Part shown: piece after piece, positions 1 through 12,262 of the stretch
Position numbering within the stretch: the stretch's first letter is position 1
Layout of the letters: each line of letters starts with the position of its first letter
Source of the DNA: Hyphomicrobiales bacterium
Lineage (GTDB): Bacteria; Pseudomonadota; Alphaproteobacteria; Rhizobiales; Methyloligellaceae
Assembly: GCA_028280515.1 (NCBI GenBank)
Contig: JANQLP010000239.1
Location: 1 to 42,462, forward strand
Direction: 5' to 3'
Length of the DNA: 42,462 bases
Notes under the pieces: model-generated
Told to the model about the DNA's origin: nothing
The model's database searches: none
Seen by the model: the letters and a program-made list of their open reading frames with translations, nothing else
Translations under genes and position numbers: made by a program

Positions 1-1
1 G

Positions 2-847
2 CGCAGCAAGGAAGCGCGCGCCATCGCCGACAAGATGAAGATCAAGCGGATCAAGTCGGAAAGCCTGTGCCTGAACTGCCATTTCACGACGCAGATCAAA
101 AAGAAAAAGAAGAAGCCGGTCGCCGGGATTTCGTGCGAGTCGTGTCATTCGGCGGGCAAGGACTGGTACAAGGTGCACAGCGAGTTTTCCGGCAAGACGG
201 AGAAGACGGAATCGCGCGCCGAAGAAGCCGCGCGCTGGAAGAAGGCCGACAAGCTCGGCATGATCCGCCCGTCATCCATCTACAAGCTCGCCAAGAATTG
301 TTACAGCTGCCACGTCGTACCCCATGAGACACTCGTAAACGTCGGCGGCCATCCGGCGGGCAGTGCGTTCGAGCTGGTGTCCTGGTCGCAAGGGGAGGTC
401 CGGCACAACACCTGGTATTCGAAGGGGCAGAACAAAAAGGCCGCCCCGGGCCGGCGGCGCATTCTCTATGTGATCGGATTGGCCGTCGAACTCGAAACGG
501 CCCTGCGCGCGGTCGGCTCCGCCACCGAAAGCAAGGACTACGCCTTTCGCATGGCCCGGCGAGCGGACGCGGCGCGAAAGAAGATGAAGGCCGTGGCAAA
601 GGCGCTGCCCGATGTGCCGGAGGTCTCCCGGCTTGCGGACGCGGGTTATGCCGCCGGACTGAAACTTCAGAACAAGAAGGCGCTGGCTGCCGCTGCCGAT
701 CAGGTCGCAAAGGAAGCGCTCGCACTGGTTGCGAAACATGACGGCAGCCAGTTTGCGGCGCTCGACAGGATGATCCCGGGCGAGGAGAAATACAAAGGCA
801 AACAGCCGAAAAGCAGCGGCAAACAGGCGAAGAACGAGGCCAGGTGA
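2..847 (+). CDS. Multiheme cytochrome c, c554-like family (5' end outside window)
   Basis: The reading frame is open from base 2, so the start and signal peptide lie upstream of the window; the first ATG (base 35) is probably internal. Three CXXCH haem c sites are visible (CLNCH, CESCH, CYSCH), so at least three haems are bound. The segment GGHPAGSAFELVSWSQGEVRH after the third site is typical of periplasmic c554/c'-type cytochromes as I remember them; such proteins often carry a fourth haem nearer the N-terminus, which would be the missing part. The last 130 or so residues are helical, Ala/Lys rich and haem-free. It is expected to be periplasmic and to pass electrons between membrane and soluble partners. 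It precedes the ferredoxin, cytochrome b and decaheme genes on the same strand, which suggests one pathway. Physiological substrate unknown. Confidence 0.85.
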   Translation, partial: RSKEARAIADKMKIKRIKSESLCLNCHFTTQIKKKKKKPVAGISCESCHSAGKDWYKVHSEFSGKTEKTESRAEEAARWKKADKLGMIRPSSIYKLAKNCYSCHVVPHETLVNVGGHPAGSAFELVSWSQGEVRHNTWYSKGQNKKAAPGRRRILYVIGLAVELETALRAVGSATESKDYAFRMARRADAARKKMKAVAKALPDVPEVSRLADAGYAAGLKLQNKKALAAAADQVAKEALALVAKHDGSQFAALDRMIPGEEKYKGKQPKSSGKQAKNEAR

Positions 848-1059
848 CGCCGCTGCGCCGACCGCCGGAAACCGGCATAATTTCGCCAAAAAATCACCCA
901 TTTCGCCGCGAGATGACGCCCCACAATAACCATACGCATCGCTAGACTGATACATGGCTTCGGGGGGTGTCCCGGAATGCACGGGGAACGCGCATTCGCG
1001 CACGTCGCACACACGATCCACGCAGCCGTCAGTACAGTCGATCGTGAGAGGGAAGACGG

Positions 1060-2658
1060 TTGGCGAAAGTCCAGATCATAGACCGGCCGCGTCGTTGGGA
1101 CGTGCCGTTTGCCAGCCGGCGGCTTCCCGCGAACGCGGTGGCCGGCATCATGCGGCTTCCCGCGTTTGCGGCGCTCGACCGCCGCGAGTTCCCCGACGAT
1201 CTCCAGCCGCAGGACATCATCGCGAACGACAGCCGCATTCTGTCGTTCCGGACCGGTGACGTCATCTATGCGGCGGGCGCGTATCAGACCTCGATCTTCA
1301 TCGTCCTGAACGGTGCCGTGCGGATGCAGACCGCTGTGCCTGCGCCGCCGGAAGCGCAGCGGACGGAAGCGGACGACGCCACATGGTTGCGCCGCACGTT
1401 CCTGAAAGGCCGGCAACGTCTGCAGAAGCTTGAGTGGAAACGGGACATTGTTCCGCAACCGTCCAGTGTTCTGGCCCAGAACGATATCTTTGGTGAAACC
1501 GAAGCCATGGCGCGGACAGCGCGGCAGGCAAGCGCGGTTGCGGCCGCGGACCGGACCACGGTGCTTGAGCTTCGCTGGCCGGGCGCACGCGAGTTGCTTC
1601 ACTGGTCCGACGCGTTTCGGCGCCGGGTCGAAAACCTGTACCGGATACGCAGCGTCGAAGCGGCGCTCCGGCAGAGCTTCCTGTTCAACGGAATGGATGA
1701 CGAGCTGCTGCGCGGGATCGCAAAGCAGTGCTTTTTCGAAACGCATGGCGGATTCGGCTGGACGCACATCTACCAGCGTCAACGAACCGAAAAGCCAAGC
1801 GGTGACCGTCCGCTGGACCACGAACCGGTGATTGTGGAGGACGGTCAGTATCTGGAGGACCTGTTTCTGCTGCGGTCCGGATTTGCGCGGCTGACGGTTC
1901 AGACGAACCATACCGAGCAGACGGCGGGCTTTCTCAAGGCCGGCGAGGTTTTCGGGGCGTCCGAGCTCGGCGAGAGCATGCGCACCGGCGGTCCCGCACT
2001 CGCATCCTTCGGTCTGCGGGCTGTGGGATACGCCGACATCGTCCGGGTTCCGGCGCACTTCATCGAGGAACGCGCTTTGCACGCCGTTGCCCAGGCGCAG
2101 CGCACCGCAGGGCCGCCCCGCCAGCGCGTCGCATACCGGGGCCGGTCGCAGCTGGATTTCGTGGTGGACAACCGCTTGATCAACGGCACCAAGGCGATGC
2201 TGGTCGACACGACCCGCTGTGTGAATTGCGATGATTGCGTGCGCGCCTGCGCCGCCACCCATGACAATGTCGCACGCTTCGAGCGGCAGGGGTTTTCACA
2301 CGGCAAGTTCTCCATCTCCAATGCCTGCATGCACTGCGCCGATCCGGTCTGCCTCGTCGATTGTCCGACGGGCGCGATCACCCGCGATCAGGCAACGGGC
2401 AATGTGCTGATTGACGAAAAGACCTGCATTGGCTGCGCCAGCTGCGAGAGCGCATGTCCCTACAACAATATTCGCATGATCGATGCGCGGAACTCCTCCG
2501 GCCAGCTTCTGGTCGACAAAGACGGCACACACATTCGCACGGCAGCGAAATGCGATCTGTGCACAGGCCGAGCCGGCGGCCCGGCCTGTGTGCGTGCGTG
2601 CCCGCACGAAGCGATAACGCGTGTCGATCTCCGCGAATTGCAGACACTGACCAATTGA
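1060..2658 (+). CDS. Fusion of two cyclic-nucleotide-binding-like domains with a four-cluster [4Fe-4S] ferredoxin module
   Basis: A 532-residue protein with no signal peptide or membrane segment, so probably cytosolic. Residues about 50-180 form a CAP_ED-like domain (turn sequence FGETEAMARTARQAS near 144-158). Residues about 200-340 form a second, more degenerate copy in which the phosphate-binding arginine is not obvious. Residues 375-525 carry sixteen cysteines in four cubane sets (387/390/393/397, 423/426/431/435, 456/459/462/466, 498/501/510/514), spaced as in DmsB/NrfC/PhsB electron-transfer subunits. Such subunits wire a redox enzyme to a membrane quinol protein; here the next gene, 19 bp on, is a cytochrome b-like protein. 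The start is TTG with GAGAGGGAAGA just upstream; no ATG is suitable before residue 31. That the N-terminal domains sense a nucleotide and tune electron flow is inference. Confidence 0.85.
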   Translation: MAKVQIIDRPRRWDVPFASRRLPANAVAGIMRLPAFAALDRREFPDDLQPQDIIANDSRILSFRTGDVIYAAGAYQTSIFIVLNGAVRMQTAVPAPPEAQRTEADDATWLRRTFLKGRQRLQKLEWKRDIVPQPSSVLAQNDIFGETEAMARTARQASAVAAADRTTVLELRWPGARELLHWSDAFRRRVENLYRIRSVEAALRQSFLFNGMDDELLRGIAKQCFFETHGGFGWTHIYQRQRTEKPSGDRPLDHEPVIVEDGQYLEDLFLLRSGFARLTVQTNHTEQTAGFLKAGEVFGASELGESMRTGGPALASFGLRAVGYADIVRVPAHFIEERALHAVAQAQRTAGPPRQRVAYRGRSQLDFVVDNRLINGTKAMLVDTTRCVNCDDCVRACAATHDNVARFERQGFSHGKFSISNACMHCADPVCLVDCPTGAITRDQATGNVLIDEKTCIGCASCESACPYNNIRMIDARNSSGQLLVDKDGTHIRTAAKCDLCTGRAGGPACVRACPHEAITRVDLRELQTLTN

Positions 2659-2677
2659 CACTGAAACGCGGAGAAAC

Positions 2678-3493
2678 TTGCGCCAGCTAACGCGAAATGC
2701 CGCGGTGACGATTGTTGCGATCGCCGCACTGTTCTGGATCGTCGGGCAATACGAGACCGCCCTGCGGGACCCGCGGCTCCTTGACGGCTGGATTCTGGCA
2801 GCGGCCATGATGGCGCAGCTTTCCTATCATGTCCGCAAGCAACTCCCCGCGCTCACGCTCGGCCGCGCCGCGAGCTGGCTGAAGCTGCACGTCTATGCGG
2901 GCTACTTCGTCATCGCCGCCTTTTTGATGCACACCAGCTTTTCCCTGCCCGAAACGTCGCTGGAATGGGTCTTGTGGATCCTCTTCATGGTCGTCGCGGT
3001 GAGCGGCATCTTCGGCCTTTTTCTGACGCGATCCATCCCTGCGCGGTTGCAGCACGTGTCCGCAGATCAGGTAACGTTCGAGCAAATCGGTGCGGCCCGG
3101 GCCAGGCTCGCCGGCGAGGTGGACGGCCTCATGCTCAATTCGGTGAAGAATGCCGCATCGGCCGCGCTGTCCGACTATTACGCCGACCATCTGTACGGCT
3201 ACTTCCGCAAACCCCAGCACGTCGGTGCGCATTTGCGCGGGTCGCGCTATCCGTTGCAGGCCATGTGCGATGATCTCGACCGTCTTGAGAGTCATCCCAA
3301 TTCAAAGGCGGAGGAGCTTCTGGAAAAACTGAAGGCGCACGTGGTCGCCAAGTTCGACCTCGATCACCAATATGCGCTTCAGGGCCTGCAGCACGCCTGG
3401 TTGTTTATCCACATTCCCGCAACCTACTGCCTGATCGCCATGTCGGTGCTGCACACCATGGTCGTGTACGCGTACTCGTCGGGAGTGCGCTGA
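2678..3493 (+). CDS. Integral membrane di-heme cytochrome b-like protein
   Basis: A 271-residue protein with about five hydrophobic helices (roughly 8-24, 36-54, 68-88, 97-117, 238-266) and a soluble loop of about 115 residues between the last two. Helix 3 carries His71 and His85, and helix 5 carries His245 and His259. Both pairs are fourteen positions apart, the spacing of bis-His haem b ligands in bc1-type cytochrome b and in ferric-reductase-like proteins. I infer two stacked b haems crossing the membrane, linking a cytosolic donor or quinol to periplasmic cytochromes. Closest known family is uncertain. It starts with TTG after GGAG, 19 bp downstream of the ferredoxin gene, and its stop is one base before the decaheme gene, so the three genes are probably translated as a unit. 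Confidence 0.75.
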   Translation: MRQLTRNAAVTIVAIAALFWIVGQYETALRDPRLLDGWILAAAMMAQLSYHVRKQLPALTLGRAASWLKLHVYAGYFVIAAFLMHTSFSLPETSLEWVLWILFMVVAVSGIFGLFLTRSIPARLQHVSADQVTFEQIGAARARLAGEVDGLMLNSVKNAASAALSDYYADHLYGYFRKPQHVGAHLRGSRYPLQAMCDDLDRLESHPNSKAEELLEKLKAHVVAKFDLDHQYALQGLQHAWLFIHIPATYCLIAMSVLHTMVVYAYSSGVR

Positions 3494-3494
3494 G

Positions 3495-5639
3495 GTGAGT
3501 ATTGCGCGGTATGTGAAGTTCTGGCGGTTCGCGGAGAAGTCCGACCGGGCGCTGCGGACAAAGCGCAACATCATTTCCGCCTGGGTCGCCGTGTTGTCCG
3601 CGGGCCTGTTCATCCTCGCGATTGCCTATGCGAGCGACTCCCGCCATTTCATGCCGGGCCCGGTCACGACGGTTCACGGGACGCTGGAGCAGTGCACCGA
3701 TTGCCACTCCAACGTCTCGAAGGGACAGTTCGGTTGGCTGCACGCCGTCTTCGCGCCCGCCGATCCCGACAAGGACACGAAGTCCTGCCTCACCTGCCAC
3801 ATGATGGGGGAGGCGGCGCGCAACCCGCACGGGCTGGAACTGGCGCGGCTGGATGCCTATGTGCGCCGGGCCGAGGCGTCCCCCCACGCGAGCAAACGCT
3901 CGACGGCCTCGCGCATTCGCGAGGCGACGCTGCCGGTGGAGCGGACCTTCCCCGAGGGGGTGTTCTGCGCGACTTGCCACAAGGAGCACAATGGCCAGAC
4001 CTTTGACCTCACGGCGATGTCGGACGCGCAATGCCACACCTGCCATTCGGTCCAGTTCGACGACTTTCACAGCAGCCATCCCGAGTTCGACAGCTATCCC
4101 TTCAGGCGGCGTACCCGCATCAATTTCGACCATTCGGGCCACTTCAAGAAACACTTCCCCGAATGGCGGACAAAGAAGAACGCCAAGGAGGTGCCGCCCG
4201 CATGCACCGACTGCCATACCGTCAGCGCCGAGGGGGGGCATATGGACATCAAACCTTTCGAGCAGATCTGTACCGCCTGCCATATCGACCAGATCACCGG
4301 CGTCGAGCGGGCGACGGGTCCGAAAGGCATTACGCTGATTTCCCTGCCGGGGCTCGACCTTGAAACGCTGAAGGAGAAGAACGTCGACGTTGGCGAATGG
4401 CCGGAAGATGCCGAAGGCGAAATCAGTCCGCTGATGCGCCTGCTCATCGGACGCGACGAGAAGCACCGCAACACACTGAAGGTGACGGACGAGCTCGACC
4501 TGTTGGACCTGACCGAAGCCTCAGATGCGCAGATCGCCGAGGTCAAGACACTCGCCTGGGAGGTCAAGCGGCTGGTTCATACGCTCACCACCGCCGGCAT
4601 GACCGACTTTTTCAGGCGGATCAAATCGGCGACGGGCGCGCGTATCAGCAAAGACCTCGCCACGCAGTTGAGCGCGAGCATGCCCCATGACGTCCTTCTG
4701 GCGGCGCAACGCGAATGGTTGCCGAACCTCGCGAGCGAAATCGATGAGACGCCCGGAGAGGAAAACGAGGACACATCGCCGGTGTTCACAACCGAGACGG
4801 TTTCCGACGAGAGCAGCGGCACCGACGCCGCGGAGCAGGAAGAGGAAGACGCTGAAGAAAAGCCCAAGACGGTGAGTGCGTCCGCCGCATCTGCCGGACA
4901 ATCCGGGAGCTGGCGGATCGATCCGTTCGGCCGGCTGATCAAGGGCAACCAGCCGCCCGAGGACGAGGAAGACGACGAGGCCGAGGAGGAGGCATCCGAT
5001 CAAGAGGGCGAGGGCTCGGATGATGAGGTCGATACGGCGGACTCCGACGTTTCAGAGAACAATGGCGCGGAGGAGATCGAGGTCGATACGGAAGGATGGA
5101 CCGAACTCGGCGGCTGGTACCGCAAGGACTTTGCGATCCTCTACAGGCCGGTCGGGCATGCCGATCCGTTCCTGCGGGCCTGGCTCGATCTGACGAGCCG
5201 CCTGTTTGCGGAAGACGAGAACAACCTCGCCCGTCCGGCGTTCGAGGAACTCACACACAAGGACGCGCAAGGGCAGTGCGCCAAATGCCACAGTGTCGAC
5301 GCAACGAAAAACGCAAGCCGGGTGGTCAACTGGACGCCATCGTCGCTGGCCTCACGCGAGAGCCCGTTCACGCTGTTCGATCATCGCCCGCACTTCGGCG
5401 TCGCCCAGAAGGACGGCTGCTTTTCCTGCCACGGCATGAGCAAGGCGAAAGGCTATCTCGAGACCTACAAGGGGACCGACCCGTACACCTATGTCCCGAA
5501 CTTCAAGCAGGTGAAGAAGGAGACCTGCGCCGCGTGTCACGGCAAGATGCAGGTGCGTCAGGACTGCCTGCTCTGCCACAAGTATCATGTCAACGAGATC
5601 GCCACGCCGGTTCTGACGACCGAGGTGCCGAAGAACTGA
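3495..5639 (+). CDS. Membrane-anchored decaheme cytochrome c with a split 6+4 haem layout
   Basis: A 714-residue protein with a GTG start one base after the preceding stop. The basic N-terminus and a single helix (about 26-46) predict an inner-membrane anchor with the rest in the periplasm. Ten CXXCH sites are present at residues 67, 98, 158, 180, 237, 259, 595, 642, 678 and 691. The first six and last four are separated by about 330 haem-free residues, of which 412-535 are low-complexity and very rich in Asp and Glu. It therefore resembles a hexaheme and a tetraheme module on an acidic tether. It is much longer than MtrA/PioA decahemes, which are compact and lack this insert. It probably takes electrons from the upstream cytochrome b. 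The gene ends 22 bp from the convergent reductase gene with no clear terminator between. Confidence 0.88.
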   Translation: MSIARYVKFWRFAEKSDRALRTKRNIISAWVAVLSAGLFILAIAYASDSRHFMPGPVTTVHGTLEQCTDCHSNVSKGQFGWLHAVFAPADPDKDTKSCLTCHMMGEAARNPHGLELARLDAYVRRAEASPHASKRSTASRIREATLPVERTFPEGVFCATCHKEHNGQTFDLTAMSDAQCHTCHSVQFDDFHSSHPEFDSYPFRRRTRINFDHSGHFKKHFPEWRTKKNAKEVPPACTDCHTVSAEGGHMDIKPFEQICTACHIDQITGVERATGPKGITLISLPGLDLETLKEKNVDVGEWPEDAEGEISPLMRLLIGRDEKHRNTLKVTDELDLLDLTEASDAQIAEVKTLAWEVKRLVHTLTTAGMTDFFRRIKSATGARISKDLATQLSASMPHDVLLAAQREWLPNLASEIDETPGEENEDTSPVFTTETVSDESSGTDAAEQEEEDAEEKPKTVSASAASAGQSGSWRIDPFGRLIKGNQPPEDEEDDEAEEEASDQEGEGSDDEVDTADSDVSENNGAEEIEVDTEGWTELGGWYRKDFAILYRPVGHADPFLRAWLDLTSRLFAEDENNLARPAFEELTHKDAQGQCAKCHSVDATKNASRVVNWTPSSLASRESPFTLFDHRPHFGVAQKDGCFSCHGMSKAKGYLETYKGTDPYTYVPNFKQVKKETCAACHGKMQVRQDCLLCHKYHVNEIATPVLTTEVPKN

Positions 5640-5661
5640 GCCTCGAAACGACCGGCAGTCT

Positions 5662-6948
5662 CTAGAGATCCAGCACCACGTCGCTGGTCGGCCGCGCGAT
5701 GCAGGGCAGGCATTTGCCCGCCTCCGGTTCGCGCTCGGGCCGGCGCTGATACGCGATTTCCCCGTCCCGCAGCTTGACCGCGCATGTCCCGCACACACCC
5801 TGGCGGCACGAGCAACGGGCCTTGATGTTGTGCTCGATGGCAAGCTCCAGAAGCGACCCGTCGCGCGGCGTCCAATTGATGGTCCGGCCCGATTTCGCAA
5901 ACTCGATCCGGAACCCGGCGTCCGCCTCGGCCTGGTCCCGCGGCGTTTCTTCGGTTCCCGGATCGCTGACGCGATGACCGAAAGATTCGGTGCGGATGTC
6001 CTCTGCGGGAACGCCGATCGCCTCCAGTTGGCCGCGCAGCGACGTCATCATGGCGTTCGGGCCGCACAGATAGATTTCGCACCGGCGCGCCGTGAGCAGC
6101 GGCCGCAGAAGCTCGGCGGTGATGTGGCCCTTGACATGATAGTCGACATTCTTGCGGCAGTTCGGTGTCGGCTGGCTGTAGGCGACCAGCAGGCGAACGT
6201 TCGGCGTATGGGCGTTGAGACGGTGCAGGGTTTCGTACATGGCGTGCTCGCCGCGGTTGCGTACGCCGTAGAAGAACCAGATTTCCCTCCGTGAGCCGGT
6301 GGCGATCAGCCATCGCAACATGCTGAGCAGGGGGGTGATGCCGATGCCGCCGCCGATGAAGATGATCGGGCGCGTCGAGGTCCGGTCGAGACAGAAGGAA
6401 CCTGCCGGCGCCAGCGCCTCGACAACGGCAACGGGCTGCAGATTGTCATGGAAATGCCCCGAAATGCGGCCCCGTGGCGTGTCCGGCCCGGCCCCATGCG
6501 GCGGATCGAGACGCTTGATCGTGACGCGGTAGAAGCCTTCTTCAGTGGGGCTCTCCGACAGGGAGTAGCAGCGCATTTCGGGCTCGGCCTGACCGACGAC
6601 GGGTATGGAGAAAGTGAGGAACTGACCTGGTTGGAACGACGGGATCGCCTTGCCGTCATGGGGCTTGAGGTAGAACGAGCACACATCCTCGTTGAGATTC
6701 TCGTATACGCGCTTGACGATCCGGAACCGCCTCTTGCCCTTCCAGGTCAGCGGTCCGGTCTGCGCCGCGATCTCAGGCTTTGCAAAGACGCGCGAGGATG
6801 CGGCACGAAACTGCGAGATGTATTTCTTGTTCCGGCGCGAAAGGGCGTATCGCCGCCCGGCGAACGTCACCGCACCGATCGCGGCGCGCATCGACACGGC
6901 ACCGACGATCATTGTTCCCAAAAGCTCGACAAATCCGATTTGTGGCAT
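5662..6948 (-). CDS. Membrane-anchored FAD/NAD(P) reductase with C-terminal [2Fe-2S] ferredoxin domain
   Basis: A 428-residue protein. A hydrophobic helix (about 5-29) precedes a ferredoxin-reductase fold. RCYSLS at 126-131 is the flavin-binding signature, and GGGIGITPLLSM at 199-210 and CGPNAMM near 295 are nucleotide-binding elements. The C-terminus is a plant-type [2Fe-2S] domain with Cys381, Cys386, Cys389 and Cys416. This order matches reductases that move electrons between NAD(P)H and one-electron carriers such as oxygenases or ferredoxins. The start was placed at the ATG with AGGAG seven bases upstream; the frame stays open further upstream but into the barrel gene. It is last in a minus-strand set after the barrel and pentaheme genes (43 bp gap). 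Its cytosolic site makes it a candidate NAD(P)H entry or exit point for the cytochromes; that link is inferred. Confidence 0.85.
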   Translation of the reverse strand: MPQIGFVELLGTMIVGAVSMRAAIGAVTFAGRRYALSRRNKKYISQFRAASSRVFAKPEIAAQTGPLTWKGKRRFRIVKRVYENLNEDVCSFYLKPHDGKAIPSFQPGQFLTFSIPVVGQAEPEMRCYSLSESPTEEGFYRVTIKRLDPPHGAGPDTPRGRISGHFHDNLQPVAVVEALAPAGSFCLDRTSTRPIIFIGGGIGITPLLSMLRWLIATGSRREIWFFYGVRNRGEHAMYETLHRLNAHTPNVRLLVAYSQPTPNCRKNVDYHVKGHITAELLRPLLTARRCEIYLCGPNAMMTSLRGQLEAIGVPAEDIRTESFGHRVSDPGTEETPRDQAEADAGFRIEFAKSGRTINWTPRDGSLLELAIEHNIKARCSCRQGVCGTCAVKLRDGEIAYQRRPEREPEAGKCLPCIARPTSDVVLDL

Positions 6949-6991
6949 TGCTCGTCTCCTGCACCAGACGGATCGCGGGTGCCCCGCGACC

Positions 6992-8626
6992 TCAATAGAC
7001 AATCTGAATCTCCGCGCGTGCGCCGTATCCGTCGTCACGGCCCTCGTTGAAGGCGTAGAAAGTTTCGAACTGCAGTTGCACGTGCTGCCCCACGGCCTGC
7101 TGGAGCTGGGCGCCAACGCCCAGGCTGTCGAATCCGTCGCCGCTCAAATCGTGGCGTCCGGCGACTTCGAGAATGAGGTTGCGTCGTTTGTTGTCCCAGA
7201 ACGCCTGATACCCGATGGCGCCGCCGATAACGCTGTCGGTCGTGAACGGATCGAGCTCCGCCAGGTAGGTGCTGAGATTCGGCGATGCGAACAGAATGCC
7301 CGTGTTCGCCAGCGGACCGCCGTTGACTGCCTCGCGTCCGGCCTGCGTGAAGTTCCCGAGGCCGAGGAATGAGTTGAAATAGACGATGTCGTCGGATTGC
7401 TTGACCGTCTTGGAGATCTCGCTCGTCAGCAGGGTGCCGGTGCCGACGACGTTGCCTTCGATCTCGTCCTCCAGCGCGATGGATGTGTTCACGCGAAATG
7501 CCGTGCTGATGCCGCCCCAATGTGCCAGACGCTGGATGGCCGCGAACCCGAAATAGAGGCCGTCGCCGTTGCCTTCGTCATTCACGTAGATGAAATCGTA
7601 ATTGAGGGTGCTGACATGCTTGTCGGCCGCGATGAACAGGCCGAACATATCGGCTTCGTCGCGCCGCCGGTCGAAGTCGTTGCGGTCGAGGCGGTTCCAC
7701 CCCCACATGCCGGAGACCCGCAGGTTCGATGTTCCGGGAAAGACGATGTTGTTGCGGATGAATCCGACCGCGTCGATCGTGTCGTTGATGAGGATTCCTT
7801 CCTGGAAGACGATCGGCTGACGCCCGACTGTGAAACCGAGGTCGATGGGGCGCGAACCTTTCTTGTCCAGCACGGGGAACAGGCTTCCCAGATCGCCTTC
7901 AAAGAACAGGGTTTCGATGTTGAAACCGAACTCCTTGTTGAACCCTTCTTCCCGCCCGTCAAAGGTGTAGCGGGTAAATTCGTCGGGCCGGTTGTTGTCG
8001 GTCGGCCGGATACCCAGCAGGATCTTCTCGGTTCCGGTGAGCTGCAGGTTGACGAAGACGTCGAGCCGGTTGGCGAGCTCCGTCTCCCGGGGGTTGCCGG
8101 ACCGGCCGTCCTCGAAACTCTGGAATGCGGTACGGTTGATCGCATAGGCCCACAGCCGCGGCTGCCACACCGCACCGATAAACGGGACTTCGAAGCCCGG
8201 ATGCAGATTGCCGGTGTCCAGAAAGCCGTTGCCGAGCTCGACGGCCAGCTTCGGCCGGTCCGGCAGTTGCCCGACCGTCTTCGGATCGGTGGTCTCGGTT
8301 TGGAACGGAACGTATTCGTCCTTCAGCGCCTTGACTTCGACCCGGTCGCCGAGCGGCCAGAACGCGCTGTACCATTTTCTGTCGCCGCCATAGGCGTCTT
8401 TCTGCGCCTTGGCGGTTGCCGCCCCTTGTTTTGGCACGGGAAGGGCCATGTAGTCGTCCGGCTTAAGCTTGTCCGACTTGCTGGAGACCGCTATCCGCCA
8501 CGGCTGTGGCTTCGAGGACGACTCGGCGGCAAAGGACGTGGCCAGATCGTTGACGCCCAGGCTAACTGTCAGCAGCGCGATGGCGGCACCTTGCCAGAAC
8601 TTTCGATTACTCGTGCAAACCTGCAT
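6992..8626 (-). CDS. Outer-membrane beta-barrel (porin-like) protein
   Basis: A 544-residue protein with a signal peptide (hydrophobic stretch about 14-25, likely cleavage after SFA near 33). The rest alternates polar and aromatic residues with Gly/Asp turns, and the chain ends in IQIVY, a terminal aromatic residue as BAM substrates have. No CXXCH site is present. I do not recognise a named family. Length and composition would suit a barrel of roughly 16-20 strands. It lies between a pentaheme cytochrome and a flavin reductase on the same strand, so it might be the porin of a porin-cytochrome conduit, or a channel for the pathway's substrate. AGGAAC precedes the ATG. The gap to the pentaheme gene is 101 bp. 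Confidence 0.75.
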   Translation of the reverse strand: MQVCTSNRKFWQGAAIALLTVSLGVNDLATSFAAESSSKPQPWRIAVSSKSDKLKPDDYMALPVPKQGAATAKAQKDAYGGDRKWYSAFWPLGDRVEVKALKDEYVPFQTETTDPKTVGQLPDRPKLAVELGNGFLDTGNLHPGFEVPFIGAVWQPRLWAYAINRTAFQSFEDGRSGNPRETELANRLDVFVNLQLTGTEKILLGIRPTDNNRPDEFTRYTFDGREEGFNKEFGFNIETLFFEGDLGSLFPVLDKKGSRPIDLGFTVGRQPIVFQEGILINDTIDAVGFIRNNIVFPGTSNLRVSGMWGWNRLDRNDFDRRRDEADMFGLFIAADKHVSTLNYDFIYVNDEGNGDGLYFGFAAIQRLAHWGGISTAFRVNTSIALEDEIEGNVVGTGTLLTSEISKTVKQSDDIVYFNSFLGLGNFTQAGREAVNGGPLANTGILFASPNLSTYLAELDPFTTDSVIGGAIGYQAFWDNKRRNLILEVAGRHDLSGDGFDSLGVGAQLQQAVGQHVQLQFETFYAFNEGRDDGYGARAEIQIVY

Positions 8627-8727
8627 TGACGTTCCTGTTGAATCTCGTCGTGTTGCTCTTGGTGCGCCGCTGCCGACAGCACGTTTCAGGGGTTCGTTTC
8701 GTGATGGTCACCTTTCCGGATATGCCG

Positions 8728-10896
8728 TCACCTGTTCTTGTCCTTTGCCCAGGGCAGGCTGGGGTCGGGCTTGAAGGTGCTTGGCGGCGAGAACAGAGCC
8801 GGGGCCGACTGCCTGGTCCCGCGGCGCTTGGAGGTGGTGTTGGCCGCAAGCGTCACTTCGCGCTCCCACAGGACCTGTGTGCCTGCGATGACCGCGCGTC
8901 CGACCTCACCCGGCGTCATGCCGAAGTCGAAGCCGACATCCTGTATGGCGGTGATCAGGTTGATCGGCACGGCCTGTGCCTTGAGCTTGATCGTCGCCTT
9001 GTAGGGTCCCTTGCCGGTCAGCTGGTTCGCTTCGACCTTGTACTTGGCCCAGCGCTCGCCATTGGGCTCGATGCCCTTTTTGTGGTTGCGCTCGGTGGCG
9101 GGCTCGCCGGTGAACACCAGCGAGGTGGTCGACGGCAGGACCCGCGGCAGCGCGAAGGTCGGGAACGGGATCGGGATCACGTGCTCGATCTCGCCGCCAC
9201 GGCCGTTCTGGGTGACGAAGATCGACTGCAGGCTGAAGAGATACGGGTCGAGTTTGACCTTGCCCGCATGCACGTAGGAGGAGTGTCCGTCGCGGACATC
9301 GCCGTTTGGATCCCGGTCGCCCGAGCGGAAGACCGTGTTCCCATCACGATCCTTGACCGTCACGTCGAGCCACACAAGCCGCTCGCCGGTAAATCCGGTC
9401 GGGACGTTGTGGCCGTCCGTGCCGTTGCGGACCCGCACGCGGAAGGCGAGCCCGTTTTCATCCGCGCGATCAATGAGCACGTCGCTGAGAACGAACCCGT
9501 TCTTGAGAACCTCCAGACGCTTGCGCTTGGCATATTCGAGAAGCTCGAACTGCTCGTTGAGGATCTCGCGGGCGTCGTAGCGATCGTCGATGGACTCCCA
9601 GGCCTTCGGGAACTTGTAGTTGGCCGATACTTTCGACTCGAAGGCGTCGGTCCCCCAGCCCTCTTCATGCTTGAACTGCAGCCATTCACGCATGGTCTTG
9701 AAGGCGGCGGCCTTCTGATTGTGAGGAAAGATGCCCGGGTGAATGACCGGATAATCGGGGCCCGAGAACAGATGGTTGGTGATCTTCCGCGTCTTGGTCG
9801 GAACATCGCCGACAACCGCGGCAGGGCCCTGCTCGTATCCGGAAACTTTGCCCTGGATCTTGCCCATATGGCAGTCCTGACAGGTCTCGCCCCTCTTGGC
9901 CGCAGGCGACACCCGGTATTCGCTGAACGCTTCCTCGAGCCGGAACCCGTTGAACAGGGTCACGTCATGGCAGCTTCCGCAGAAGGTCGACGATTTGATC
10001 GGGTCGAATACCTTCGCTTCGTTGTGAATCTTGCGGCCCGGCTCCTTGGGATCCGTGACGACGCGGAATTTCTCCGGTTGCTCCAGGGTTTCCTTGACGC
10101 CGGCATTGCCTTCCGGTCCGAATACCGGTTCGGTCAGACCGCCCTCGACCAGGGCCAACCGTCCGCTGACCTTGTTGTAGTTCTTGTTGATGCGGTGGCA
10201 GACGACACAGGTGATGCCTTCGCGCGACGTCGGATGACGGTCGAGGTTTGACTCAAACGTGCTTTCGCCCAGGTTGGCGCCGACCGGATTGTGGCAGCGC
10301 AGGCAGAAGTCGCCGTTCGAACCGTTGCTGAGCTGGTTGATCTTGTTGTTGAGCGACAGATAGATCGGGCTGAGCTGCGCATAGGCGTGCTGGGAAACCG
10401 ACCATTCCTTGTAGTGCTTGGGATGGCAGATGCCGCACGTCGCCGCGGCCGGGTAACGGTCTTCCACAAACAGCGCCAGATGCTGCTCGTCGGCGGATGC
10501 CGGTTTCTCGCCGTCCGTACCCTCGGTCTTTTTCGGCGGAGTCGACTGTTTGTATTGTGGCGTGGGCTTTTTCTTGCGGCTTTCGCTTCCCTCCGGCCCC
10601 AGCGCCCGGTCCGCTTCACGCAGCAGATCATCGGTCTGGCCGGGTTGAACGAGTGCGGTTGCCTGCGCCAGCCGGATCGGCTTTTCGGTCTTTTTGGTTC
10701 CCGGTGCGGCGAGATACCTCTCGAGCCGTTCGGAAATCCGTTCCGGACTGGTGGCCAGCGGGAAGTGATCGGCAGGGGCGGTCGGGTCTATCCCGGCCTT
10801 CGCGCCGAATGGCCGTTCAAGTATTCCGTCATGTGCCAGTCCGGCGCCGACGACGAGAACAAAAGTGACAATCAGAGTACGGATTAACTGTTTCAT
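8728..10896 (-). CDS. Secreted pentaheme cytochrome c with a long haem-free C-terminal region
   Basis: A 722-residue protein. The start is the ATG beginning MKQLIRTL, preceded by GGGGG, which gives a good signal peptide (cleavage near residue 21); the frame extends 49 codons further upstream without support. Residues 25-145 are charged and low in complexity. Five haem sites follow: CGICH 154, CLRCH 198, CVVCH 230, CGSCH 306 and CQDCH 339, in a c554-like arrangement. Residues 360-722 have no haem motif and contain sequence such as HNVPTGFTGERLVWLDV, suggestive of a beta-sandwich domain. I expect a periplasmic or outer-membrane-associated carrier. It is the first gene of the minus-strand set, with the barrel and flavin reductase after it. 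No lipobox is seen, so surface exposure would have to rely on the neighbouring barrel. Confidence 0.87.
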   Translation of the reverse strand: MKQLIRTLIVTFVLVVGAGLAHDGILERPFGAKAGIDPTAPADHFPLATSPERISERLERYLAAPGTKKTEKPIRLAQATALVQPGQTDDLLREADRALGPEGSESRKKKPTPQYKQSTPPKKTEGTDGEKPASADEQHLALFVEDRYPAAATCGICHPKHYKEWSVSQHAYAQLSPIYLSLNNKINQLSNGSNGDFCLRCHNPVGANLGESTFESNLDRHPTSREGITCVVCHRINKNYNKVSGRLALVEGGLTEPVFGPEGNAGVKETLEQPEKFRVVTDPKEPGRKIHNEAKVFDPIKSSTFCGSCHDVTLFNGFRLEEAFSEYRVSPAAKRGETCQDCHMGKIQGKVSGYEQGPAAVVGDVPTKTRKITNHLFSGPDYPVIHPGIFPHNQKAAAFKTMREWLQFKHEEGWGTDAFESKVSANYKFPKAWESIDDRYDAREILNEQFELLEYAKRKRLEVLKNGFVLSDVLIDRADENGLAFRVRVRNGTDGHNVPTGFTGERLVWLDVTVKDRDGNTVFRSGDRDPNGDVRDGHSSYVHAGKVKLDPYLFSLQSIFVTQNGRGGEIEHVIPIPFPTFALPRVLPSTTSLVFTGEPATERNHKKGIEPNGERWAKYKVEANQLTGKGPYKATIKLKAQAVPINLITAIQDVGFDFGMTPGEVGRAVIAGTQVLWEREVTLAANTTSKRRGTRQSAPALFSPPSTFKPDPSLPWAKDKNR

Positions 10897-11026: not shown

Positions 11027-11047
11027 TGACTTGACGGCATCAAGTCA
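11027..11047. promoter_or_regulatory. Perfect 8-5-8 inverted repeat, candidate operator of the pentaheme operon
   Basis: TGACTTGA, spacer CGGCA, TCAAGTCA. The centre lies about 140 bp upstream of the pentaheme start and about 650 bp from rplU, so it more likely serves the cytochrome operon. The TTGA/TCAA half sites recall FNR/FixK boxes, but the spacing between them is five rather than six. The cognate regulator is unknown. Confidence 0.4.
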
Positions 11048-11683: not shown

Positions 11684-12262
11684 ATGTACGCAGTTATCCG
11701 CACCGGCGGAAAGCAATACCGCGTTGCGCCGGACGACGTCATCGAGGTCGAGAAGGTCTCGGGCGACGCGGGCGAGATCATCCAATTCAGCGAAGTGTTG
11801 ATGCTTGGCGGCGAAGGTGCTCCGCAGGTGGGTACACCGGCGATCGATGGCGCCAGCGTGGCCGCGCAGGTTGTCGAGCAGAAGCGCGGCGACAAGATCA
11901 TCGTCTTCAAGAAGAAGCGGCGCAAGAACTACCGCCGCAAGAAGGGACATCGTCAGCATCTGACGGCTGTCCGTATCACCGAGATTCTGACCGGCGGCAA
12001 GAAGCCTTCAAAGGCGGCCGCAAAGCCGGCGCCTGCGAAGAAGGCGCCCGCGAAGAAGGCCGACGAGGCCAAGCCGGCTGAGAAAAAGGCCGCTGCCGAG
12101 AAGGCGGAGCCGAAGCCGGCCGCCAAGAAGACGGAGGCCAAACCGGCGGCCAAGGCCAAGGCGCCGGCAAAGAAAGCCGCGCCGAAGGCCGCTGCGGCGA
12201 AGAAACCCGCCGCAAAGAAACCGGCGGCGAAAAAGCCGGCAGCGAAATCAAAGGAAGACTAA
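11684..12262 (+). CDS. rplU: 50S ribosomal protein L21 with long Lys/Ala/Pro tail
   Basis: Residues 1-103 are a complete L21 ([14 protein letters not shown] start, [16 protein letters not shown] rRNA-binding stretch), a structural protein of the large subunit. The protein is 192 residues against about 103 for the family. The additional 89 residues are low-complexity repeats of Lys, Ala and Pro, resembling histone-H1-like tails. Similar though often shorter tails occur on some alphaproteobacterial L21 proteins. AAGGA stands nine bases before the ATG. rpmA follows 44 bp later in the usual L21-L27 pair. Confidence 0.96.

Follow-up and report, generated by a model that had tools for sequence, protein, structure and literature searches.

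A PCC4-type porin-cytochrome gene cluster in a Hyphomicrobiales bacterium may connect the outer membrane with cytosolic NAD(P)H

Introduction

Seven genes for redox and envelope proteins occupy positions 1-10896 of a 42,462-nucleotide stretch of DNA from a Hyphomicrobiales bacterium (assembly GCA_028280515.1, contig JANQLP010000239.1; this whole stretch is hereafter the window), where they are arranged as two convergent sets. Do they form a single system across the cell envelope and, if so, in which direction would electrons move through it? The plus-strand set encodes a tetraheme cytochrome (P1), a protein with cyclic-nucleotide-binding and ferredoxin domains (P2), a putative inner-membrane b-type cytochrome (P3), and a decaheme cytochrome (P4), and the minus-strand set, convergent with it, encodes a pentaheme cytochrome (P7), a predicted beta-barrel (P6), and a flavin reductase (P5). 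A sequence-only reading of this DNA had proposed that the seven genes form one pathway and that it may be undescribed. Our analysis supports the view that the genes form one system. We rejected the suggestion that the system is undescribed, as its gene content matches that of PCC4, a putative porin-cytochrome cluster described by He, Barco, Emerson and Roden in 2017 and named on sequence alone (PMC5566968). No experiment on PCC4 was found in the literature that we searched. We tentatively propose, giving the idea a little less than an even chance, that the PCC4-type system is an export route, in which electrons supplied by NAD(P)H in the cytosol would travel to the outer membrane and, most likely, reach an acceptor outside the cell.

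Results and discussion

The seven genes occur together across several phyla

P1 was used to scan named bacterial genomes and returned 392 relatives. The best 80 of these loci were analysed, with a gene counted as present when its match reached at least 100 bits unless stated otherwise. The 80 loci come from seven phyla: Pseudomonadota (Alpha- and Gammaproteobacteria), Nitrospinota, Nitrospirota, Planctomycetota, Acidobacteriota, Verrucomicrobiota, and Omnitrophota. All seven genes are present in 34 loci from four of these phyla (Pseudomonadota, Nitrospinota, Nitrospirota, and Planctomycetota); one of the 34, L108, has broken frames. In most complete sets (28 of 34) every gene has the same orientation, with P7-P6-P5-P1-P2-P3-P4 as the usual order, and the other six converge like the window. 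Seven-gene arrays are present in cultured, named species of genera such as Tistlia, Roseibium, Thalassobaculum, and Nisaea. Among the 38 complete loci, those of at least 20 kb, wider profiles detected P1 in 38, P4, P6, and P7 in 37 each, P3 in 36, and P2 and P5 in 24 each; P1, P3, P4, P6, and P7 occur together in 35 and all seven in 20. Three loci fall outside this five-gene core: a single frame joins P2 to P3 in L078, L088 is reduced to P7, P6, and P1, and L101 has no P6 or P7 nearby. Four heme motifs were counted in 79 of 80 P1 sequences, ten in 61 of 72 P4 sequences, and five in 58 of 65 P7 sequences; deviating counts mostly reflect cut or broken frames, and four P7 sequences have four motifs. 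Clustering of neighbouring open reading frames (ORFs) across the 80 loci revealed no extra partner in more than 12 loci. The commonest cluster is found in 11 Hyphomicrobium-type loci and L062, and the next (nine loci) lies at a median distance of 4.4 kb.

These loci had been chosen through P1, so we added a scan that started from the barrel. The P6 profile matched 29 of 337 genomes sampled from the class of the window, and 28 of the 29 regions were scanned (a 3.5-kb contig of G341 was excluded, and a second, partial match in G067 lies on a contig that had already been scanned). All seven genes are present in 16 of these 28 loci. Three others are at contig starts (L155, L162, and L167), one is cut at the end of the region (L156), two miss only P1 (L171 and L173), and six are divergent or reduced variants (L161, L165, L169, L172, L175, and L178). 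A strong P7 match (E 1.7e-58 or better) was found in 27 of the 337 genomes, every one of which also has P6; ten further genomes have weak P7 matches only. P7 is missing from just 2 of the 29 P6 genomes, G187 and G284, in both of which the P6 match is at a contig start. P3 matched 54 of the 337 genomes, and 28 of the 29 P6 genomes are among these; 20 of the 21 genomes with strong P3 matches have P6. The larger number of P3 genomes indicates that P3-like proteins exist without the barrel, in agreement with the porin-less clusters described in PMC5566968. Strong P7 matches were also found in 30 of 246 genomes sampled from the phylum of a Planctomycetota carrier. A separate search with P4 gave matches in 13 of 61 genomes, its own included (two are weak), and no match in plasmid records. 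The neighbourhoods of these P4 relatives show the same genes, mostly in the layout of the window; L030 lacks P5 to P7 in the 16 kb read, and L031 (G030, of the same order) lacks P2 and P5. At L031:2560-17212 a Fer2-like gene is beside P1-P3-P4, with soluble formate dehydrogenase-like genes downstream (by eye). Homologues were thus found together across the relatives' loci rather than mostly alone or with unrelated partners, which bears out the proposal of a single pathway.

The histories of the proteins were compared over the 68 loci, out of 108, in which five proteins are full-length; the distances are raw, without correction for shared descent, and only the contrast between values is meaningful. 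Distances correlated most tightly between P6 and P7 (r 0.967) and between P3 and P4 (r 0.931), followed by P1 with P3/P4 (0.77), P6/P7 with P3/P4 (0.59-0.65), and P1 with P6/P7 (0.44-0.50). P6 and P7 therefore act as one evolutionary unit and P3 and P4 as another, and the two have been re-paired at times. The tight correlation inside the pairs and the looser one between them could also be read as two separate systems lying merely side by side in two convergent sets, and 2 of the 38 complete loci (L088 and L101) indeed lack one half. This is very improbable, and co-occurrence already disfavours it: all seven genes form a single one-strand array in 28 of the 80 loci, P3 accompanies P6 in all but one of the P6 genomes, and 8 of the 10 genomes with no P7 near their P1 locus hold a strong P7 match elsewhere (one match contains a stop codon).

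The cluster matches PCC4 in content

Judged by predicted gene content, the window cluster is PCC4. As in the description of that cluster (PMC5566968), it comprises a porin, cytochromes with four, five, and ten hemes, no further multiheme gene, another redox gene, an inner-membrane protein with two WX3HX13H motifs and an SGXXG motif, and, as in subgroup II, an upstream Fe-S gene with PF13247. The convergent layout fits neither published subgroup exactly and mixes both: the window has the content of subgroup II in a two-direction layout, and its reductase gene is grouped with the barrel and pentaheme genes in the convergent set instead of preceding the tetraheme gene. Among our homologues were Hyphomicrobium loci whose content agrees with the description of subgroup I. 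The main text of PMC5566968 names neither NAD(P)H nor cyclic nucleotides for PCC4 and sends the electrons to the quinone pool. What our analysis adds is the NAD(P)H and cyclic-nucleotide end, the strict pairing of P6 and P7, the barrel fold, and the wide distribution, although Supplementary Figure 4 of that paper may show the same domains. A later paper that cites it (PMC13264449) describes a first porin-cytochrome cluster group with a large decaheme cytochrome, a porin of ~20 strands, and a ferredoxin-NADP reductase nearby in 7 of 11 cases, to which the window system may be related.

Other known systems are less similar. The Geobacter cluster extHIJKLMNOPQS likewise unites a porin, a pentaheme (ExtKL), a decaheme, a tetraheme, and an inner-membrane cytochrome b (PMC5877670), but it has a rhodanese, a Rieske protein, and a 12-heme cytochrome, the words "ferredoxin" and "cyclic nucleotide" do not occur in the article text, and P7 scores just 38.9 bits against the ExtKL model NF040886 (cut-off 250). 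This model gave weak matches in 7 of 61 genomes of the order, none above cut-off. MtrAB, MtoAB, and PioAB share with the window the idea of a barrel with a multiheme cytochrome, and P4, in its C-terminal part, scores above the cut-off of PF22113, the Pfam domain II/IV of MtrC/MtrF (41.2 versus 30 bits); however, no MtrA/DmsE-type model was listed for P4, and P6, modelled with ~18 strands, matches no Pfam family, the MtrB/PioB type included. The inner half would work like an NADPH oxidase or ferric reductase, in that it combines NAD(P)H and flavin with a pair of b hemes held by HX13H pairs across the inner membrane, but on separate polypeptides, with extra Fe-S clusters and with 19 c hemes on the far side. 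A resemblance of the PCC4 membrane protein to ferric reductase domains is noted in PMC5566968.

Predicted properties of the inner and outer proteins

Candidate second histidine ligands are available for every heme (motif and further histidines number 4+4 in P1, 10+11 in P4, and 5+6 in P7, and P3 has four histidines for two b hemes). P1 matches PF13435 (E 5.3e-8) and its profile matches the cytochrome c554 structure 1bvb (E 8.8e-11). In an alignment of 70 relatives, eight His and eight Cys columns are conserved at 90% or more, accounting for four heme motifs and four candidate distal ligands. Mature P1 of the window has a net charge of +36, and 77 of 97 relatives likewise have a positive P1. 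P2 contains PF00027 (E 1.1e-16) and PF13247 (E 2.1e-13). The 16 cysteines seen in its ferredoxin part by the sequence-only reading are invariant in nine aligned sequences, window included, leaving room for four [4Fe-4S] clusters. The phosphate-binding-cassette pattern GE.{8}R..[TS] is present in P2 of the window and in 33 of 40 relatives. P2 is probably cytoplasmic, as no membrane segment was found.

The four histidines reported for the membrane protein P3 (H71, H85, H245, and H259) are invariant in 48 and in 67 sequences, and lie in two WX3HX13H motifs (W67-H71-H85 and W241-H245-H259), with SGXXG at S109-G110..G113. A simple hydropathy scan of P3 gave four peaks, two of them overlapping, compared with five transmembrane helices in the description of the PCC4 inner-membrane protein. 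Searched against Pfam, P3 did not match the ferric-reductase transmembrane domain. In P4, 20 Cys and 21 His columns are conserved at 90% or more among 60 relatives, and there is one transmembrane-like segment (residues 26-44). The P4 linker has a net charge of -39 in the window and is negative in 62 of 80 relatives. P5 was confirmed to carry the FAD, NAD, and 2Fe-2S domains (PF00970, PF00175, and PF00111) of the reductase noted earlier, preceded by a hydrophobic N-terminal segment; its start, MPQIGF, was taken from the starts of relatives.

The predicted model of P6 is a barrel (mean predicted local distance difference test score, pLDDT, of 83) with ~18 strands by manual count, and by structure comparison it resembles OprD, Occ, and AlgE barrels; no MtrB-type barrel was among the 50 structure matches listed. 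P6 had been read as a signal-bearing protein with an aromatic end. Its C-terminal residue is Tyr, as expected from that reading, whereas the signal peptide is apparent by eye only and a hydropathy scan at a threshold of 1.6 gave no segment there. Assignment of the barrel to a nutrient-porin family had been named as an outcome that would speak against a cytochrome pathway. The resemblance to OprD porins extends to fold only, as neither P6 nor 48 aligned members matched any Pfam family, and P7 is present in 27 of the 29 P6 genomes. The predicted structure of P7 shares the fold of the Thermochromatium tepidum pentaheme cytochrome c552 (5ze8; 20% identity), with a pentaheme core and an immunoglobulin-like domain, but P7 differs in its long disordered N-terminal tail and its strict pairing with the barrel. 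It has at least five invariant non-motif histidines. In a quick tree of 57 rows (with a long-branch warning for L164), P7 of the window grouped with metagenome-assembled genomes of Hyphomicrobiales, apart from the Hyphomicrobium branch.

The disordered-looking N-terminal tail of P7 carries arrays of D-D-L-L, of which there are 154 in 62 proteins where shuffling gives 12.1 +- 3.4; the P4 linker likewise carries 76 in 62 proteins compared with 10.6 +- 3.1. Counts over whole proteins are 159 in 91 (14.4 +- 3.0 shuffled) for P7 and 91 in 90 (18.8 +- 4.5) for P4, whereas P1, P2, and P5 are within about two standard deviations and P3 and P6 have no excess. The arrays, seen for example in L083, L071, L100, L103, and L113, are mainly in the one-strand branch; the window has one copy in P7, at residue 89, and none in P4. 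D-D-L-L is a possible docking motif shared by the decaheme and pentaheme cytochromes. Our guess is that the disordered arms tether or capture the basic shuttle P1. The P7 tail is negative in 50 of 82 relatives, but that of the window (net charge +3) does not fit the acidic half of this guess. In the divergent branch, decaheme cytochromes at L175:4218-5921 and L165:4773-6911 have an FHA-like N-terminal domain (22.5 bits against a cut-off of 20.7 in L175; a related model is below its cut-off in both), and other decaheme relatives have a Cys-rich N-terminal region with CGxxxxGxxCxxGP repeats, which the window copy lacks.

Direction of electron transfer

Given the gene content, the conserved candidate ligands, the co-occurrence, and the modelled folds of P6 and P7, a trans-envelope electron chain is plausible. 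Electrons would pass from NAD(P)H to P5 (FAD and 2Fe-2S, anchored in the inner membrane) and on to the four 4Fe-4S clusters of P2, whose cyclic-nucleotide domains would be a likely on/off control. P2 would reduce P3, and the two b hemes would carry the electrons across the inner membrane to the ten c hemes of P4, anchored and periplasmic, from which the basic tetraheme P1 would shuttle them to the pentaheme and barrel (P7/P6) and possibly beyond the outer membrane. Gene fusions bear on part of this order; the rest of the order, the direction, the localisation, the control by a cyclic nucleotide, and the passage beyond the outer membrane are inferred. In Oceanospirillum sediminis (L078), P2 and P3 form one 858-residue frame. 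At L175:921-3314, a 797-residue protein combines an FAD/NAD(P) oxidoreductase with two cyclic-nucleotide domains and 4Fe-4S clusters, and beside it are P3- and P4-like genes whose matches are weak (75 and 55 bits). In L054, the one Hyphomicrobium-type locus checked, which is without P5 and P2, a 2Fe-2S/FAD/NAD reductase gene is next to P1. These fusions and this reductase point to a cytosolic NAD(P)H end rather than to the published donor-to-quinone model. On general thermodynamic grounds, NAD(P)H should be able to drive electrons outward through two b hemes, aided by the membrane potential, whereas reduction of NAD+ by Fe(II) along the same path would need an energy input, and no gene here supplies one.

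The published model runs the other way: a donor outside the cell, for instance Fe(II) or Mn(II), would pass electrons through the porin and cytochromes to P3 and the quinone pool (PMC5566968). As described there, PCC4 is known from marine Zetaproteobacterial Fe(II) oxidisers and from the Hyphomicrobium of a pyrite-oxidising enrichment, and the motifs of P3 resemble those of quinone-active b cytochromes. We searched for RuBisCO (PF00016) in 49 hand-picked carriers, namely the genome of the window and 48 of the 80, and found it in the window genome and ten others (8 of the 11 at E < 1e-130). Its absence from the remaining 38 indicates that CO2 fixation, or lithoautotrophy, is not common to carriers. 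Three of the seven named isolates or strains searched have it (Roseibium aggregatum, Tistlia consotensis, and MnTg02), and it was not found in Hyphomicrobium CS1BSMeth3, Oceanospirillum sediminis, Thalassobaculum litoreum, and Nisaea denitrificans. RuBisCO in Roseibium, Tistlia, and MnTg02 led us to lower our estimate for export and to raise that for uptake, and electron uptake in some carriers is possible. As a general account, however, uptake has no use for P5 and P2, which each reach at least 100 bits in 24 of the 38 complete loci, and leaves the fusions of flavin, Fe-S, and cytochrome b modules unexplained; we consider it unlikely. A second alternative keeps the same inner half but makes P6 a substrate channel that would admit a small soluble oxidant (a metal or metalloid oxyanion, or a chelate) into the periplasm, where P7 would reduce it with electrons from NAD(P)H. 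The 18-strand OprD/Occ/AlgE-like model is the fold of substrate-selective channels, loss of the Geobacter porin ExtI affected selenite and tellurite but not Fe(III) citrate reduction (PMC5877670), and the pentaheme c552 fold of P7 is described as related to the family that holds ExtKL (PMC11976967), although the match of P7 to the ExtKL model is weak. With at least five invariant non-motif histidines in P7, no heme is clearly open for catalysis, and periplasmic reduction through a channel is a possibility that we put on the unlikely side.

Several observations weigh against export itself. The Hyphomicrobium branch lacks P2 and a true P5 (11 Hyphomicrobium-type loci have no P2, and P5 scores there are 56-70 bits), and 7 of 40 relatives have no cyclic-nucleotide cassette pattern in P2. 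An exchange between P3 and quinones, proposed in PMC5566968, is possible, and RuBisCO is present at E < 1e-130 in the window genome and in all three RuBisCO-positive isolates or strains named above. The cluster has no further multiheme gene that could act outside the cell, and the modelled 18-strand barrel seems too narrow for the pentaheme core, so that passage of hemes through it is doubtful. Scans of 193 upstream regions, which were placed from the longest ORF starts and are hence rough, gave no regulatory clue for Fur, Irr, FNR, or CRP. Fur sites numbered 1 compared with 0.7 expected and Irr sites 8 compared with 8.5. We draw no conclusion from the FNR-like sites (6 compared with 1.4 +- 1.9 expected under a strict pattern, 7 compared with 3.0 +- 2.1 under a relaxed one) or the CRP-like sites (8 compared with 2.4 +- 1.4, five of them downstream of the assumed ORF start). 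On balance, export from NAD(P)H is the reading that we tentatively prefer. A more specific form of it, in which PCC4 is not an uptake wire but a widespread, cyclic-nucleotide-gated, NAD(P)H-driven exporter that resembles a split NADPH oxidase and feeds 19 c hemes, bridges the periplasm by catching its basic tetraheme with disordered arms of the decaheme and pentaheme (in many relatives these are acidic and carry D-D-L-L), and ends at an OprD-like barrel with the pentaheme, is rather doubtful, and the RuBisCO results lowered its odds as well.

Gene layout and surroundings of the window cluster

The features of the cluster are listed in the table. The window is the start of its contig (C36), which the left neighbour contig C30 overlaps by exactly 99 bases. 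C30 supplies ~300 bases of the 5' end of P1, encoding a hydrophobic N-terminus and a fourth CXXCH, so that the expected leftward continuation holds for P1; further upstream on C30, no other redox gene was recognised in the ORF list, which contains LysR-like, NHL-repeat-like, and unnamed ORFs (names by eye). The sequence-only count of at least 18 CXXCH sites in three proteins proved to be exactly 18 within the window and 19 with the joined part of P1 (four in P1, ten in P4, and five in P7).

Table. Features of the PCC4-type cluster in the window
Feature	Description	Position	Strand	Evidence
P1, gene 1	Tetraheme c554-type cytochrome, 3' part	1..847	+	PF13435; 4 CXXCH in joined reading
P2, gene 2	Cyclic-nucleotide-binding domains and 4x[4Fe-4S] ferredoxin domain, TTG start	1060..2658	+	PF00027, PF13247
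P3, gene 3	Putative inner-membrane di-heme b-type cytochrome	2678..3493	+	two WX3HX13H, SGXXG, four invariant His
P4, gene 4	Decaheme cytochrome, N-terminal membrane anchor, acidic linker, GTG start	3495..5639	+	10 CXXCH
P5, gene 5	Membrane-anchored FAD/NAD(P)/[2Fe-2S] reductase	5662..6948	-	PF00970, PF00175, PF00111
P6, gene 6	Predicted outer-membrane beta-barrel, ~18 strands, OprD/Occ/AlgE-like fold	6992..8626	-	predicted model
P7, gene 7	Pentaheme cytochrome, C-terminal immunoglobulin-like domain, pentaheme c552 family	8728..10896	-	5 CXXCH

A perfect inverted repeat upstream of P7 (CTTGA-CGGCA-TCAAG, 11030-11044) is a possible operator. To the right of the cluster are housekeeping genes (rplU, rpmA, obgE, proB, proA, and ATP synthase, named by eye), beginning with ribosomal protein L21 at 11684-12262 (name by eye), which has a long C-terminal tail rich in Lys and Ala. 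In a distant member of the class, a P1/P7/P6-like set (L161:5724-10555) directly precedes rpmA-obgE-proB-proA-nadD (by eye), and this housekeeping block is also the one that borders the window cluster from 11684 onward.

Implications

Export from NAD(P)H and uptake to quinone make opposite predictions for the organisms that carry this gene set, which is common across the genomes sampled (27 of 337 in the class and 30 of 246 in the phylum of the Planctomycetota carrier). Export by heterotrophs has also been suggested by the authors of PMC13264449. If PCC4 were a gated exporter, heterotrophs in several phyla could dump reducing power outside the cell independently of quinones. If NAD(P)H export under cyclic-nucleotide control is correct, it would give many bacteria of the sea and of soils a regulated means of reduction outside the cell or at its edge, which would bear on iron, on manganese, and on redox chemistry outside cells.

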